Shown here: positions 2,542 to 9,897 of the stretch, piece after piece
Position numbering within the stretch: the stretch's first letter is position 1
Layout of the letters: each line of letters opens with the position of its first letter
From: a virus
Strand: one strand, 5' to 3'
IMG/VR virus record: IMGVR_UViG_3300031787_000957
Span: 1 to 21,632 of that record
DNA length: 21,632 nucleotides
Notes under the pieces: generated by a model
What the model was told of the DNA's origin: nothing
Databases searched by the model: none
Seen by the model: only the letters and a program-made list of their open reading frames with translations
Position numbers and translations under genes: made by a program

Positions 2542-2949
2542 ATGATGATCGAAGGAATACCGGACGGTTGGGTTGCTTTAAGATTTGACCATTCAGTTTT
2601 CGGCGATAATTGGATCGACGAAATGGGGCAAATTCATTTACACGAAGCGGATCTGCATTCAAAGTACAAGCGGTTAATCATCCGCAAGATCGAGAAGCCC
2701 AAGCAGTATCGACCATTCGCGAATGCGGCGGAGTTCGAGCCTCATCGGGATCGGTGGGTGTATTCGGCAGAGCAAAGAGACGACAACCAAGAAGGGGCGG
2801 AAAGTCCTGAAGATGGGCATTCAAAAATCACGACTTATTCAAAACATGGCGTAACTATTGACGGATATGCTTTTTGCTTCGACACCGCATTTAGGTATTT
2901 TGTTTTTGACGACGACGGAACCCCATTTGGCGTGGAGGTGACACAGTGA
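2542..2949 (+). CDS. Hypothetical phage protein with YRPFANAAEFEPHRDRW motif, 135 aa
   Basis: ATG at 2542 follows CGGAGGG at about 2529-2535 with a 6-nt gap. Longer in-frame extensions would run back through the folded gap and into recT, so they are rejected. The centre contains KPKQYRPFANAAEFEPHRDR, a segment seen in assorted phage accessory proteins of unknown role. The rest is short beta-like segments and an acidic middle (DDNQEGAESPEDG). The last residues FGVEVTQ are shared with the next gene, because both genes end in the same 24-nt DNA segment that holds the ribosome site and start of the following gene. Confidence 0.6.
   Translation: MMIEGIPDGWVALRFDHSVFGDNWIDEMGQIHLHEADLHSKYKRLIIRKIEKPKQYRPFANAAEFEPHRDRWVYSAEQRDDNQEGAESPEDGHSKITTYSKHGVTIDGYAFCFDTAFRYFVFDDDGTPFGVEVTQ
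2926..2949 (+). repeat. Stop/ribosome-site/start cassette, copy 1 of 2
   Basis: This 24-nt segment is identical to 3525-3548. It contains GGCGTGGAGGTGACACAG followed by TGA, so it encodes the last residues of one protein (FGVEVTQ), supplies GGAGGTGA as ribosome site, and overlaps the GTG start of the next gene in a GTGA motif. Confidence 0.8.
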
Positions 2950-3548
2950 TATTAATCGCTAATTTTTGCGACAGGCACAGAGCATGCCAAGACGGTCGAA
3001 AGTGGGCATTGGACAACTGCGTGGACATGCACGACGCATGGCAGAGGCTAGAGCCAGATTGGTTGCTGTGGGTAGCCACTAGGCCCGGCGTGCTAACCGA
3101 TCGAGAGCTGCGATTGTTCGCCGTCTTTTGCGCTCGGCAAGTAGAGCACCTGCTGACCGATCAGCGATCCAAAGACGCGATTGACACGGCTGAAAAGTTC
3201 GCGAAAGGAGAAGCGACTTACGAAGAGCTGGCTGCGGCTGAGGATGCGGCTTGGGCTGCGGCTAGGGTTGCGGCTTGGGATGCGGCTTGGGCTGCGGCTG
3301 AGGCTGCGGCTAGGGTTGCGGCTTGGGGTTCGGATAGGGATGCGGCTTGGGCTGCGGCTAGGGTTGCGGCTTGGGATGCGGCTTGGGATGCGGCTTGGGC
3401 TGCGGCTAGGGTTGCGGCTTGGGGTTCGGCTGCGTCTGCGGCTAGGGTTGCGGCTTGGGGTTCGGCTTGGGATGCGGCTTGGGCTGCTCAGTCGGATTGG
3501 CTGAGGGCTAACACGCAACCTAACTTTGGCGTGGAGGTGACACAGTGA
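2946..3548 (+). CDS. Ala/Trp-repeat protein with an Imm-5-like N-terminal part, 200 aa
   Basis: The GTG at 2946 uses the GGAGGTGA site in the preceding repeat cassette. Residues 1-95 (CDRHRACQDGRKWALDNC, PDWLLWVATRPGVLTDRELR, FAVFCARQVEHLLTD) resemble the putative-immunity (Imm-5-like) proteins often seen in phages, whose function is not settled. Residues about 96-185 are a helical run of AAW, AAR, DAAW and GSA units made by tandem 12-nt DNA words. The result is an alanine-rich helix with tryptophans at regular positions. It ends in FGVEVTQ like its upstream neighbour. The repeat length probably varies between relatives. Function unknown. Confidence 0.65.
   Translation: MILIANFCDRHRACQDGRKWALDNCVDMHDAWQRLEPDWLLWVATRPGVLTDRELRLFAVFCARQVEHLLTDQRSKDAIDTAEKFAKGEATYEELAAAEDAAWAAARVAAWDAAWAAAEAAARVAAWGSDRDAAWAAARVAAWDAAWDAAWAAARVAAWGSAASAARVAAWGSAWDAAWAAQSDWLRANTQPNFGVEVTQ
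3231..3487 (+). repeat. Imperfect 12-nt tandem repeats inside the Ala/Trp-repeat gene
   Basis: About 257 nt are built from variants of GCGGCTTGGGAT, GCGGCTTGGGCT and GCGGCTAGGGTT. The period is a multiple of three, so gains or losses of units keep the frame. The same low complexity opens long frames on both strands here; these are by-products of the repeat, not genes. Confidence 0.85.
3525..3548 (+). repeat. Stop/ribosome-site/start cassette, copy 2 of 2
   Basis: Identical over 24 nt to 2926-2949. Here it ends the Ala/Trp-repeat gene, supplies GGAGGTGA and overlaps the GTG start of the sliding clamp gene. The two copies therefore bracket the Ala/Trp-repeat gene exactly. Confidence 0.8.
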
Positions 3549-4639
3549 AAATCAACATCAACAGACGGCAACTACTAGACCTGCTTTCGGTCGCAAGTGC
3601 GACGACGGGCAAGGACGTTTTGAGCAACGTCAAAATCTCGGCTGGTCCCGATTGCTTAGCGATCGACTCAACAGACGGTGAGATCGGCTCGGTGCTGTCC
3701 TCGGACTGCGAATGCATGGCTCCCGGGAAGTGCCTAATCAACCCCGGTCGAGTCGCTTCGATCCTTGGTCCATCGACAGCCGAGACAGTGACGATTGAGG
3801 CCAACGGTCAAGCGGTGACGGTCACGGCGGGCAAGGCGAGTTTCGAGCTTCCTGCGGTCGATCCTGGCACGTTTCCGGCGGTCAAGACAATCGAGGGCGA
3901 AGCGATCGAGATCCCGGCAGCGGCATTGCTGTCGGCGATTAGGCGGACGATCTTTGCTGTCGACCTGACTTCGACCCGATACCAGTTGGGCGGAGTATTG
4001 TTCGAGGTCGACGGCGAAACGCTTCATCTAGTCGCAACTGACGGCAGAAGGCTCTCAACCGTCGCTGTCGACGTCGCAGGCGGAAAGATTGCCGGAGGGC
4101 CGATCGTCGCACATCGTGGCTTGCAAGCGATCCTGAAGACGTTTGGAGGGGCCTCTACCGTGACGATCAAGACTGACGGTGCATCGCTGCAGGTGGCCTC
4201 AGATACCGCTACGCTGGTTTGCAGGCTGGTTGAAGGGCGATTCCCGAATTGGCGTGGAGTGGTCCCGTCGGGCAACTTCGCCCATGCGATTCCGATCCCG
4301 GCTGACAGACTCAAAGCGGCATTGTCGCAGGCTTCGGTAACGACGCTGGACGAATCGCGGGGCGTGGAGTTGGCCTTTAGGCCTCCAAAAGAAAATGAAG
4401 CAAAAGGGACGTTGAAGATCAGTTCCAAGGGGCAAGACAGGGGCAAGTCGGAGATTGAGTTTGAGGTCGATACTTCGGCGGAGATCGCGACGACGATCGA
4501 CTGGCGGTTCGCGCTGGACTTCGTTAAGGAGATTCCAGGCGATGAGGTGATTGAGTTCAGGATCAACGATAAGACCAAGCCAATCGTTTTGGCCTGGGGA
4601 ACTTGGACGTATGTCGTCATGCCGATGAGCAAGGAGTAG
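3545..4639 (+). CDS. dnaN: Phage-encoded DNA polymerase III beta sliding clamp (DnaN), 364 aa
   Basis: A ring-shaped processivity factor that holds a polymerase on DNA. Length and order match bacterial DnaN (about 365 aa, three similar domains). Visible marks are VLSNVKISAG in domain 1, GVLFEVDGETLHLVATDGRR (domain 2, the L-x-x-V-A-T-D-G-x-R-L block), LVEGRFPNWRGVVP, and the C-terminal YVVMPM near the protein-binding pocket. The GTG start uses GGAGGTGA in the shared cassette. The copy looks intact. A polymerase gene is not in this window, so the clamp may serve a phage polymerase encoded elsewhere or recruit the host enzyme. Confidence 0.93.
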   Translation: MKININRRQLLDLLSVASATTGKDVLSNVKISAGPDCLAIDSTDGEIGSVLSSDCECMAPGKCLINPGRVASILGPSTAETVTIEANGQAVTVTAGKASFELPAVDPGTFPAVKTIEGEAIEIPAAALLSAIRRTIFAVDLTSTRYQLGGVLFEVDGETLHLVATDGRRLSTVAVDVAGGKIAGGPIVAHRGLQAILKTFGGASTVTIKTDGASLQVASDTATLVCRLVEGRFPNWRGVVPSGNFAHAIPIPADRLKAALSQASVTTLDESRGVELAFRPPKENEAKGTLKISSKGQDRGKSEIEFEVDTSAEIATTIDWRFALDFVKEIPGDEVIEFRINDKTKPIVLAWGTWTYVVMPMSKE

Positions 4640-6893: not shown

Positions 6894-7032
6894 CAGTTGA
6901 CTCGCTAGGGCCTCATTGAGCCCGAAAGAGTTGGTTCGGTGCCAGAGCCGGGATTGCCTTCACTCCCAATCGGCATCAAAGCGGCGGTCTGATACGAGCC
7001 GTGACGCTAGCTCGGCCTCGAAAGGGGCCGGG
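6894..7032 (+). ncRNA. Structured intergenic RNA candidate upstream of the HNH gene
   Basis: The gap between the nuclease and HNH genes carries several pairings. GGG/CCC with CTC/GAG form a small hairpin at 6908-6923. GGTGCC (6938-6943) pairs with GGCATC (6972-6977), stacked on GATTG/CAATC (6952-6956 with 6967-6971). CGGC pairs with GCCG (6982-6985 with 6998-7001), and GCTAG (6904-6908) can meet CTAGC (7007-7011). The last element is a nine-pair hairpin at 7011-7032 capped by GAAA. I do not recognise a known RNA class; it lacks group I or II intron core sequences that I could identify. Confidence 0.4.
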
Positions 7033-7041
7033 CGACTTTTT
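7011..7041 (+). terminator. GAAA-capped GC-rich hairpin with T tract
   Basis: CTCGGCCTC (7011-7019) pairs with GGGGCCGGG (7024-7032) through nine pairs, including wobbles, closed by a GAAA tetraloop. CGAC and then five T (7037-7041) follow. This is a good intrinsic-terminator shape, except for the 4-nt gap before the T run. It would end transcripts from the recombination/nuclease block. Confidence 0.55.
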
Positions 7042-7068
7042 AACACTTCTAGGAATCTAGGTGCAAAG

Positions 7069-7542
7069 ATGAAAAAGCTGATTTATCACGACCGTTATTA
7101 CGCAAGAGATGATGGTCATATCGAAAACGCATTGACTGGCAAAGTCTTATCTGGTGGTAAAAACAGCAGGGGCTATCTTACGGTTTCGCTTTACGATGGC
7201 TCTACACCTAAAAGGCCAAAATCGTTTCTGGTCCATCGGTTAGTTGCCGAAGCTTTTTTGGGAGAGAGCGGATTGCAGATCAATCACAAAGACGGAAACA
7301 AGACAAACAATGAGATTTCGAACCTTGAGTTTGTTACGGCAAAAGAAAACACTAGGCACTCCATCGAGGTTCTTGGAAACGATCAGTTTGGCACTAATAG
7401 CCCAGTGTGCAAGCTATCCGAGGAAGCCGTTAAAGACATCCTGTCTAGCGATCTACGAAACGCCGATCTAGGGCGAAAATACAATGTGCACCCAGCATAC
7501 GTTGGGCAGATTCGCAAGGGTTTGTATAGGGCTCGCGGGTAA
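7069..7542 (+). CDS. HNH homing-type endonuclease, 157 aa
   Basis: An HNH DNA nuclease of the phage homing type. The N-terminal part (YYARDDGHIENALTGKVL, RGYLTVSLYD) resembles a NUMOD4-type DNA-recognition region. The catalytic core is VHRLVAEAFLG (H56) and INHKDGNKTNNEISNLEFVT (N72, H73, N77, N81, N85), with the usual VTAKEN end. Residues 111-150 (CKLSEEAVKDILS, DLGRKYNVHPAYVGQIRKG) form a helix-turn-helix-like tail. Upstream in-frame codons from 6916 fall in the structured gap, so ATG 7069 is chosen; its ribosome site (AGGTG) is weak. Likely a mobile gene sitting between the nuclease and replication genes. It is not evidently inside an intron. Confidence 0.85.
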   Translation: MKKLIYHDRYYARDDGHIENALTGKVLSGGKNSRGYLTVSLYDGSTPKRPKSFLVHRLVAEAFLGESGLQINHKDGNKTNNEISNLEFVTAKENTRHSIEVLGNDQFGTNSPVCKLSEEAVKDILSSDLRNADLGRKYNVHPAYVGQIRKGLYRARG

Positions 7543-7589
7543 CATTCCGTTTTTCTCGGATGACTTTTTAAGGTAGAATCATGGCGTCA

Positions 7590-7681
7590 GGTTGCAAGCC
7601 CGACAACAAAGAAACAACTCCCCCAGCGGTATCTTTTGGTGCGTCTACGCGCCAGGGCTTGCAACCGTATATCGCTGGGGG
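7590..7681 (+). promoter_or_regulatory. Interleaved long inverted repeats (pseudoknot) in the leader of the replication genes
   Basis: Arm A GGTTGCAAGCCC (7590-7601) is exactly complementary to 7655-7666. Arm B CCCCCAGCGGTAT (7620-7632) pairs with 7669-7681 over 13 pairs with one G-T wobble. The order is A, B, A', B', so the helices interlock. Between B and A' sits a seven-pair hairpin (7637-7643 with 7648-7654, loop TCTA) directly abutting A'. The 18 nt between A and B are A/C-rich and unpaired; only two nt separate A' and B'. A possible -10 box TAGAAT (7574-7579) would start RNA just before arm A. The initiator gene's ribosome site follows at about 7695. It could be a regulatory RNA switch or, as DNA, a protein-binding site. 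Confidence 0.65.
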
Positions 7682-7707
7682 ATTTTCCATTTGCGGGGAC
7701 GCATAGC

Positions 7708-8595
7708 ATGAGCAACGAGACTGACGGCAACAAGCGAAAGAGCCCAAGCGCAAAATCTCCGGGGTTTTGGTTTTTCACGGGCGATTGGCTCAAGGATCCT
7801 GAGTTGCGATTTTGTTCCATTTTTGCTCGCGGTTTGTTAGTCGATTTGCTTTGCTTCATGTTCGAGTCTAAAGAACGCGGATATCTGATTTGGCCGGACG
7901 GATCCCCAAGGTCAAATGAGGATATCGCCGACGCGGTTTCAGGCGGGGACCGGTCAGATAAGGTCAAGGCGATCGAGGAACTGGAAAGAAAAGGCGTTTT
8001 ATCCAGGGATTCTCGCGGTGTTTTATTTTCCCGCAGGATGGCAAGGCTTGGAGAGATATCGCAAATGCGAAGCAACGCAGGCAGCAAACCCAAAACAAAA
8101 CAGGAACAAACGCCAAACAAAACAGGAACAAAAGGCGAACAAAAACCGGGGGTTACGGATACGGATTCTGTTTCGGATTCAGTAAATAAAACCCCCCTTA
8201 CCCCCCAAGGGGGAGGTGTTGTTGTCTCTGAGGAAAAACCGAAACAGCCTGAACAGCGCGCGGGAGATCCTCCACCGAAGCGAACCCGCAAGACTCAAGA
8301 GACGATCGGAGAATTCCAGATCCCTAAACGACTGGACACCCCTGAGGTCCGCAAGGCACTCGAAGATTTTGAGACAATGCGCATCAGGACAGGCAAGCGG
8401 ATTCGAGATCGCGGGAATGTTTGCCGAGGGTGGGATAATCGATTTGTCGACGTTGCTCACTTGCTAGCCTGCATCGATATTACGATTGCCAACGAGTGGC
8501 AAGGCATCGACCCAAAGTACGTTACGGCGGGTCAGGCGTCATTCGGAAGGCCAGAGCGAAAAACGACCGAGGTCCCTGCCCACAGGAGGTTTTAA
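7708..8595 (+). CDS. Phage replication initiator / replisome organiser-like protein, 295 aa
   Basis: Probably recognises the phage origin and loads the DnaB-type helicase encoded next, as lambda O-like and replisome-organiser proteins do. Residues about 18-115 (GFWFFTGDWLKDPELRF, RSNEDIADAVSGG, AIEELERKGVLSRDSRGVLF) look like a winged-helix domain. Residues about 120-205 are a low-complexity Lys/Gln/Thr/Pro linker. The C-terminal part ends in ACIDITIANEWQGIDPKYV, typical of helicase-loading tails (IANxWQGI). ATG 7708 is chosen because the in-frame ATG at 7636 lies inside the pseudoknot and GGGGAC precedes 7708. The linker DNA carries the candidate origin. Confidence 0.7.
   Translation: MSNETDGNKRKSPSAKSPGFWFFTGDWLKDPELRFCSIFARGLLVDLLCFMFESKERGYLIWPDGSPRSNEDIADAVSGGDRSDKVKAIEELERKGVLSRDSRGVLFSRRMARLGEISQMRSNAGSKPKTKQEQTPNKTGTKGEQKPGVTDTDSVSDSVNKTPLTPQGGGVVVSEEKPKQPEQRAGDPPPKRTRKTQETIGEFQIPKRLDTPEVRKALEDFETMRIRTGKRIRDRGNVCRGWDNRFVDVAHLLACIDITIANEWQGIDPKYVTAGQASFGRPERKTTEVPAHRRF
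8093..8216 (+). other. Candidate replication origin: iterons plus GC-run hairpin inside the initiator gene
   Basis: AAACAAAACAGGAACAAA occurs exactly at 8093-8110 and 8115-8132, a 22-nt period, with CGCC and GGCG flanking the second copy. The copies fall in different reading frames, so protein sequence does not explain them. CGGATTC repeats at 8162-8168 and 8174-8180. An A/T stretch follows (about 8181-8191), then CCCCCTT (8193-8199) pairing with AAGGGGG (8207-8213) around a C-rich loop. Lambda and its relatives place their origin in the linker of the initiator gene with the same order of parts. The origin assignment is an inference. Confidence 0.5.
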
Positions 8596-8598
8596 CCG

Positions 8599-9897
8599 AT
8601 GAACACTGAAGAAACCCTAAAGGACGAAGAAGCGTTGATTGGCGGGATCCTTTGCAACCCAGAGACAATCTACCAAGCGGCAGAGCACGTTGACAGCAAG
8701 TCATTCATTTCCAGCGGGTTTGGGTTGGTTTTCCAAAGCATCCAAACGATGCTTCAGTCTGGATTGCCGGTTACTAGGGCGAATGTGGCGTTGGAGCTCA
8801 CTAGGGTTAAATCGGTTGATGCGATCGGAGGCGTCAAGAGGCTCATTGAACTACTCGAAGACGGTCAGCCCCATCATGTGGTTTACTACGCAGAGCAAGT
8901 TGCAAAGCACGGAAGACGTCGGAGGCTAAGAGATTTCATTGAGGACATCCGAAGTAGATCGGAGGATCCGGCATTGGACCCGTTGGAGTTAGCTTCCGAA
9001 ATGGCTCAGGCTGTTGGCATCATGGGCGGCGACGACTCCAACCAGAAGCAGATCGGGCAAGTAGTGGTTGAGTTTTTGGAGCAATGCGAACAAAACAAAA
9101 AGATTGGCAAGGAATCTGTTTTATCGACTGGACTGGGACCACTGGACACCGCTCTTGATGGTGGGCTACCAGCGGGGTATATCACGATCGGAGCGAGGCC
9201 ATCGATCGGTAAGTCTGCCTTTGGGTCAGAGATTTGCTATCGAGTTGCCAAGCAAAATGTGCCGACGTTGTTTGTTAGCTTGGAAATGAACTTTAGACAA
9301 ATTGCCTCAAGGTTTGTTTTGAGGTCTTCGACCATGACGACAGCGGACCTGAACCGACTGACATACACGCAAGACCAGATCGATCAGGCGTTTTCTAGTG
9401 CGTTGCGTGATGCTAGCGTACCGATGGATTTCTGGCATAAACCAGGGGCAACGATCGCCAAGATTGAATCTAGGATCCGCTCCGACATCGCCAAGCGAGG
9501 TTGTCGGCTGGTTGTGATTGACTACATCCAACTTGTAAAGGCTCCAGGGTTTACCGAGCCTAGGATGCGTGTAACGCATGTCTCAAACGAGATCCAGCGG
9601 ATAAGCAAAGAGTTGAATATCCCGATCGTGATGCTGGCCCAGGTTGGCAGGCAATCCGAGGGCGCGATGCCGGAACTAAACGACCTGAAAGAATCTGGAA
9701 GCATTGAAGAAGATTCCGACGTTGTTATACTTCTCCACAGGGAGAAGCGGGACAGCGAGGATCTTATCGCCAAGGTTGCAAAACAGCGAAGCGGTGAAAT
9801 CTCCGAAGCTGGTTTGGCGATGCGTCGAGGTGTTGTTATGTCCCCAGCAGAGTTGGGGCAAGAGTTTCATGGTGATTTTGCGAAAGGGTCTTATTGA
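8599..9897 (+). CDS. dnaB: Replicative DNA helicase, DnaB family, 432 aa
   Basis: A hexameric 5'-3' helicase for the replication fork. Residues 1-140 form the DnaB N-terminal domain (EEALIGGILCNPETIYQAAE). The RecA-like motor follows: Walker A GARPSIGKS at 198-206, catalytic glutamate in SLEM (E229), Walker B RLVVIDYIQL around D308, then NDLKESGSIEEDSDVVILLH and KVAKQRSGE. Walker A ends GKS where many DnaB proteins have GKT, which is tolerated. The C terminus (AMRRGVVMSPAELGQEFHGD) differs from bacterial DnaB. GGAGG at 8585-8589 sets the start. It directly follows the initiator-like gene, the usual phage replication pair. Confidence 0.93.
   Translation: MNTEETLKDEEALIGGILCNPETIYQAAEHVDSKSFISSGFGLVFQSIQTMLQSGLPVTRANVALELTRVKSVDAIGGVKRLIELLEDGQPHHVVYYAEQVAKHGRRRRLRDFIEDIRSRSEDPALDPLELASEMAQAVGIMGGDDSNQKQIGQVVVEFLEQCEQNKKIGKESVLSTGLGPLDTALDGGLPAGYITIGARPSIGKSAFGSEICYRVAKQNVPTLFVSLEMNFRQIASRFVLRSSTMTTADLNRLTYTQDQIDQAFSSALRDASVPMDFWHKPGATIAKIESRIRSDIAKRGCRLVVIDYIQLVKAPGFTEPRMRVTHVSNEIQRISKELNIPIVMLAQVGRQSEGAMPELNDLKESGSIEEDSDVVILLHREKRDSEDLIAKVAKQRSGEISEAGLAMRRGVVMSPAELGQEFHGDFAKGSY

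Follow-up and report, generated by a model that had tools for sequence, protein, structure and literature searches.

What does the leader ahead of a phage replication operon encode when its inverted repeats interlock? An earlier note, made from the letters of the 21,632-nucleotide stretch analysed here (the window; positions 1 to 21,632 of IMG/VR record IMGVR_UViG_3300031787_000957), had described such repeats in the order A-B-A′-B′ between an HNH gene and a replication initiator gene, and had proposed a pseudoknotted regulatory RNA, two mutually exclusive hairpins or a DNA site for the initiator. The observation proved real, and its interpretation is partly supported by the analysis below.

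Interleaved helices ahead of the initiator gene

All three helices that the earlier note described were reproduced from the sequence and with a repeat finder, at the same coordinates and with the same pair counts. The element and its surroundings comprise the following features:

7550–7555, + strand: −35-like position, TTTTTC (TATTCC or TTTCC in relatives, 17–18 nt before the −10 box); weak and short of the sigma-70 consensus
7574–7579, + strand: −10-like box, TAGAAT (TAAAAT, TATAAT or TGTAAT in relatives; TANAAT-like)
7581–7706, + strand: 42-codon open frame over the element, not taken for a conserved gene
7590–7601, + strand: helix P1, 5′ arm, GGTTGCAAGCCC (sequence, repeat finder, covariation)
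7602–7619, + strand: joining strand L1, A-rich, GACAACAAAGAAACAACT (group 1 alignment)
7620–7632, + strand: helix P2, 5′ arm, proposed 5′ arm of a terminator stem, CCCCCAGCGGTAT (sequence, repeat finder, covariation)
7637–7654, + strand: hairpin P3 (7637–7643 with 7648–7654), TGGTGCG-TCTA-CGCGCCA, abutting P1′ (sequence, fold, covariation)
7655–7666, + strand: helix P1, 3′ arm (P1′), within the P2 loop, GGGCTTGCAACC (sequence, repeat finder, covariation)
7669–7681, + strand: helix P2, 3′ arm (P2′), ATATCGCTGGGGG (sequence, repeat finder, covariation)
7683–7686, + strand: U-tract TTTT, proposed termination point (sequence; up to U6–7 in relatives)
7695–7699, + strand: Shine–Dalgarno-like GGGGA of the initiator, outside all helices (sequence)
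7708–8595, + strand: replication initiator, the first gene past the element (PHROG 13246 replisome organizer, 678 O-like; PHROG match)
8599–9897, + strand: DnaB-type replicative helicase in the initiator's operon (database match)

P1 is Watson–Crick throughout (12/12 pairs, by sequence and repeat finder), P2 has 12 Watson–Crick pairs and one G-U, and P3 has six and one G-U. The arm order is A-B-[hairpin]-A′-B′: the 36-nt P2 loop holds both P3 and P1′, so that P1 and P2 interleave. P1′ and P2′ are separated by 2 nt in the window and by 0–6 nt in relatives; ATTTT (7682–7686) follows P2′ directly, and the initiator ATG at 7708 lies 26 nt past the arm that ends at 7681, as had been reported. A covariance model built later found a single copy of the element in the window. 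An additional outer helix in the window, GCGTC/GACGC, was rejected, as it is not retained across all relatives.

Chance is a very unlikely origin, as the note had judged. In 3,000 dinucleotide shuffles of the element, no A-B-A′-B′ knot reached 12 and 13 pairs in its helices, none reached even 10 and 10, and 11 shuffles had knots of 9 and 9; a 108-nt strand folded 3.8 SD below its shuffles, with 0/200 shuffles equalling it.

A search with the Rfam 15 covariance models returned nothing relevant up to E = 1, in keeping with the view that this is no known ribozyme or riboswitch. The nested pseudoknot arm order with a P3 hairpin is shared with HDV-like ribozymes, a likeness remarked on before, and could suggest a self-cleaving or processing RNA, either such a ribozyme or a nuclease-resistant pseudoknot. 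The likeness fails, however, because the 0–6 nt between P1′ and P2′ leave no room for a P4 or for the catalytic joining strand (J4/2); Rfam gives no match, and the single-stranded joins vary apart from an A-rich L1 and a UCUU-like J2/3. We regard cleavage or processing as highly improbable.

Compensatory change in related leaders

Related leaders (group 1) were gathered through relatives of the initiator in viral contigs and through pattern and neighbour searches. Phage records held no similar DNA and only two, distant, initiator relatives; in a genome collection no initiator relative passed, and 25 pattern matches were judged to be chance on reading. Six further leaders (L138, L044, L136, L139, L065 and L068) were likewise set aside as chance pattern matches with the wrong context and a weak or absent model score. 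A strict automated knot screen of leaders missed true members, and a looser one found 7–8-bp knots in about 16% of leaders once these were shuffled (22/1,880, or 1.2%, with a T-tail); because of this chance level, only model-backed or exactly complementary cases were counted.

Group 1 leaders have a common design with differing letters, as their P1 arms illustrate:

Window and L060: GGTTGCAAGCCC/GGGCTTGCAACC
L061 and L071: GGTT(T)GGCCGCC/GGCGGCCAACC
L003: GTGTGGCAGCTA/TGGCTGCCACGC
L149: TTTGGCCGCCGA/TCGGCGGCCAAA
L016: TGACCGCCGA/TCGGCGGTCA
L152: GGTTGCTACCC/GGGTAGCAGCC

The P2 arms diverge similarly, from CCCCCAGCGGTAT/ATATCGCTGGGGG in the window to CCCCGCGTCGTCGT/ACGGCGACGCGGGG in L149. Cognate arms gave a mean longest pairing run of 11.0 for P1 and 12.4 for P2, compared with 5.7 and 6.7 between arms of unlike variants, and some close variants cross-pair. 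The P2 stem spans 11–15 positions and is followed by U3–6, and GAC and AAACA recur in L1 in most group 1 relatives.

A covariance model (R2) built on five near-identical sequences of the L003 type, with P2 and P3 and without P1, matched the window (E = 6e-6) and L071, L063, L140, L149, L152, L016 and L142 (E = 0.004 or better), these E-values, like those of model R1 below, being rough by the tool's own warning. In the R2-derived alignment, P1, a helix absent from the model, was paired in 88% of cells with 24 double-compensated cells, whereas sliding its partner by 1–3 columns left 23–44% paired and at most 7 compensated. Over all 30 pairs of the knot, 92.4% of cells were paired (at most 44% in slid controls), 69 cells were double-compensated against 23 ± 4 in shuffles, and two-sided changes affected 22/30 pairs. 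Group 1 was aligned both by hand and by model, since MAFFT shifts P2 by one position. The aligned leaders thus show both interleaved helices to be maintained by compensatory change, as expected of a pseudoknotted structured RNA. The covariance search that the earlier note had suggested therefore strongly supports its pseudoknotted regulatory RNA, and no homologous leader examined had lost pairing in both helices without compensation. The ATTTT after arm B′ was likewise a good clue, with U3–7 at the same spot in relatives.

The 42-codon frame over the element invites a translational explanation, in which it would be translated and coupled to the initiator while the helices hide or expose ribosome sites. 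No stop interrupts the frame in those group 1 members that were checked; several have AAGG ahead of its ATG, and its end adjoins or overlaps the initiator start. Yet where the frame differs between the window and its closest variant, L060, 7 codons are changed nonsynonymously and 1 synonymously, and several of these changes belong to the compensation in P2; length differences between group 1 variants are not divisible by three and break the frame; and in the second group of leaders described below an ATG at this place is followed by a stop within a few codons (L019, L028). The initiator's Shine–Dalgarno sequence, moreover, lies outside all helices. We read the frame as a probable by-product and consider control through it very unlikely.

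A second group with kissing loops

Initiators about 49–50% identical to that of the window are preceded by leaders of another design (group 2), which a pattern scan also refound. Three hairpins make up their plan: H1 at the 5′ end, H2 (GCGG-GNAA-CCGC), and H3, whose 15-bp stem runs into U6–7. The H1 loop is 8 nt long, an A and seven further letters, and can form 7 bp with the 8–9-nt loop of H3, and the kissing letters vary (CTAGCAG, ATAGTAG, GTAGACG, CTACCAG, GTAGCTG), each with its own complement in H3; differing kissing loops do not fully cross-pair. Across the group 97.2% of cells were paired, with 47 compensated cells against 15 ± 3 in shuffles, and the kissing helix was 100% paired in 7/7 sequences with 4/7 of its pairs compensated. 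Two other pairings fared less well: CAACAA/UUGUUG is nearly invariant, is broken in L042 and is thus unproven, and L042 could also pair H2 with the 3′ arm of its terminator, an alternative that relatives do not conserve.

A model of group 2 without the kissing contact (R1) found one copy per group 2 record and also matched L168 (E = 2e-5) and L195 (E = 1e-3), which precede initiators of another family. The L168 loops are complementary (TATGCAGA/TCTGCATA), as are the 7-nt loops of L195 (GAACAAG/CTTGTTC), a less certain case than L168 as R1 placed H1 on a different hairpin. That models from partial data, R1 and R2 alike, found further members supports an RNA family. The two groups are alike in plan and place; since neither model detects the other group, a common origin is unproven.

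Group 2 leaders adjoin the 3′ side of a csrA gene (Pfam CsrA; 8/8 group 2 records tested, for example L050:1108–1293). Most of them have AANGGA, which may be a CsrA motif, immediately ahead of H1, and CsrA may be a candidate regulator.

A leader of the replication operon

Group 1 leaders become similar about 30–35 nt before the element despite unrelated upstream genes (17 distinct upstream sequences), and the similar region includes the −10-like box. The position of this box predicts a transcript start at about 7583–7587, just before P1. There is no good −35 element by E. coli standards.

The gap from U-tract to start codon is 12–21 nt in the members measured, across several initiator families, and longer in L142–L147. 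The first gene is almost always a replication initiator (PHROG 13246/678, 2149/1408/16167 or 2509/9474). In L016 the element heads an operon whose first three genes are non-initiator and whose initiator comes fourth, with close spacing to the first gene retained; the element is therefore better described as an operon leader than as an initiator-specific site. This bears on the proposal that the inverted repeats are DNA, whether as a replication origin or as an initiator binding site with protein sites or a cruciform. Nearly all copies do lie beside replication genes, but the element persists while the initiator family changes, in L016 three genes separate it from the initiator, the letters of the helices diverge freely under maintained pairing that includes many G-U pairs, and the U-tract and promoter box hold fixed places. 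A DNA role is disfavoured and, in our judgement, extremely improbable.

The HNH gene upstream of the element in the window is real (PF13392) and appears incidental to it, because it is absent from that spot in L016. In the window it occupies 7069–7542, between a terminator-like hairpin (7010–7033) and the element's promoter (region 7042–7549); in L016 (320–391) hardly anything separates that terminator from that promoter. Given this empty site, the gene looks like a free-standing mobile insertion. L016 (392–3898) and the window further have in common the promoter, the initiator's C-terminal part and DnaB (100%). They differ in the helices of the RNA, in the N-terminus of the initiator and in three inserted genes (one without identification, one resembling ParB/DUF5131 and one HNH-like), a sequence pattern that is one of exchange at the replication module. 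Elsewhere in the window, a low-complexity coding repeat (AARVAAWDAAWAA...) occupies 3150–3540 in the open reading frame 2946–3548, and a phage sliding clamp gene (DNA polymerase III beta; 3545–4639) lies downstream of RecT- and exonuclease-like genes.

A putative pseudoknotted terminator

Comparison of the leaders establishes the structure, its compensatory conservation, the U-tract and the place before the first gene of the operon; that transcription terminates at the U-tract and that P1 modulates termination is what we infer from them. We propose that the element is probably, though by no means securely, an attenuator, in which an intrinsic terminator folded as a pseudoknot would set how much transcription reads through into the replication operon. 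A leader RNA of about 100 nt would be transcribed at the start of the operon, with P2 as the intrinsic (Rho-independent) terminator stem and its large loop captured by the 5′ end of the transcript through P1; in group 2 the equivalent would be the 7-bp kiss between the loop of the 5′ hairpin and that of a canonical terminator. Transcription would begin just upstream of P1; in folding of the nascent strand P1 and P3 come first and P2 last, and with polymerase at the U-tract P2 would have to close on an already tethered strand. Timely closing would release the transcript after about 105 nt, and otherwise polymerase would read through to the initiator and the DnaB helicase, so that the element would meter replication protein. 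Candidate signals include a copy of the RNA acting in trans, a protein (the phage CsrA in group 2) and transcription speed.

In both groups a stem runs directly into a U-tract, and the 15-pair stem with U6–7 in group 2 supports termination; one group 2 stem was flagged by a terminator scan. Against it count the 36-nt P2 loop and the short tracts of U3–4 in the window (U4), L061 and L149, which are weak for an intrinsic terminator, and the window was not flagged. No competing anti-terminator pairing was seen, the P1 and P2 arms overlapping in no member, so a basis for conditional termination is not visible. The same fact bears on the earlier suggestion of two mutually exclusive hairpins. On energies alone a switch is possible, P1 with P3 (−32.2 kcal/mol) and P2 with P3 (−33.1 kcal/mol) being nearly equal in the window, but the helices share no bases in any relative, and in group 2 the P1 partner fits inside the 8–9-nt terminator loop, which suggests that the two helices form at the same time; a switch is thus disfavoured.

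A simpler proposal is an unregulated insulating terminator that blocks read-through from upstream and whose tertiary structure is decorative. It would fit the stem, the U-tract and the mosaic upstream genes. The promoter-like box of group 1, however, lies upstream of the stem, so that such a terminator would act on its own operon, and a bare hairpin would suffice, making the conserved second helix needless; we find insulation quite improbable.

A further proposal turns on the released RNA. The terminated transcript of about 100 nt might itself be a trans-acting small RNA, whose P1 or kissing strand pairs with nascent leaders of other genome copies and so senses copy number or co-infecting relatives. 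It would have a compact fold flanked by a promoter-like box upstream and a U-tract downstream; P1 or kissing letters differ despite near-identical flanks (between L071 and L126 the promoter is shared and the following 300 nt are 96% alike), and different kissing loops cross-pair incompletely. A position 12–21 nt from the operon's first gene would nevertheless be needless for a free-standing RNA. Prophage immunity is also unlikely, as no tyrosine integrase, resolvase or above-cut-off HTH_3 repressor was found in 14–18 related partial records (contigs of about 40 kb included). We consider a purely trans-acting role unlikely. The attenuator and the trans-acting RNA could be combined: contact of the loop strand with the transcript's own 5′ end would gate terminator closing, and released RNA would sense like copies in trans, as the diversification of contact letters between phages might suggest, limiting the initiator of its own kind in a plasmid-style copy-number control of apparently virulent phages. 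This extension is speculative, and we would not expect it to hold.

Relation to known leader RNAs

We know of few descriptions of structured RNAs controlling phage replication genes, and a literature search for kissing or pseudoknotted terminators in phage initiator leaders found none. In pT181 and inc18 plasmids such as pIP501, a structured leader carries an intrinsic terminator before the replication initiator, and loop–loop kissing can occur (PMC4878617). The putative attenuator described here resembles these in having a structured leader with a proposed terminator ahead of a replication initiator. In the plasmids, an anti-terminator pairs with the 5′ terminator arm and an antisense RNA drives the switch, whereas here the contact of P1 is confined to the terminator loop and leaves the stem untouched, and an antisense gene was not identified. 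The repZ pseudoknot controls translation together with a translated leader peptide. It lies in the replication-initiator leader of IncI-alpha/IncB plasmids (ColIb-P9, pMU720; Asano and Mizobuchi 1998, cited in PMC10286972). Here, by contrast, the fold does not include the Shine–Dalgarno sequence and is followed by a U-tract, and the frame in the leader lacks conservation.

Among phages, HK022 put is a cis-acting RNA of about 70 nt in early transcripts that alters termination (PMC9378689). Its two stem-loops bind polymerase and suppress termination at distant sites; put forms no such knot and does not itself terminate transcription, unlike the interleaved helices and U-tract found here. In the CI-RNA immunity of satellite phage P4, pairing in a leader RNA decides early termination of the replication operon. 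P4 has a separate CI RNA and a temperate life, whereas no integrase was found in the 14–18 partial records of the phages here.

On its proposed working, the element seems to be a folded stop signal of a new kind, one that would meter replication protein in uncultured phages. Two architectures, a pseudoknotted and a kissing-loop terminator, would then occupy one spot before the replication operon, with fast-changing letters and kept helices. They offer a natural collection of loop pairs that are orthogonal to one another, and a test case for the effect of co-transcriptional tertiary contacts on intrinsic termination. Reading of raw sequence without tools had in this case identified a real RNA family that is absent from Rfam.

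Related initiators also follow leaders outside both groups. L161 and L166 share another conserved multi-stem leader (GACAGTAGGTCTCTCACCTTCCTACGCGCCGC), within about 200 nt before position 1001. In L186 (about 120 nt before 764) and L176 (about 80 nt before 1001) the initiator is directly preceded by a large terminator-like hairpin with T-runs, and in L176 its loop, GGTGG, is the complement of CCACC a little upstream. Attenuators ahead of phage initiators may, on such sequences, be more general.
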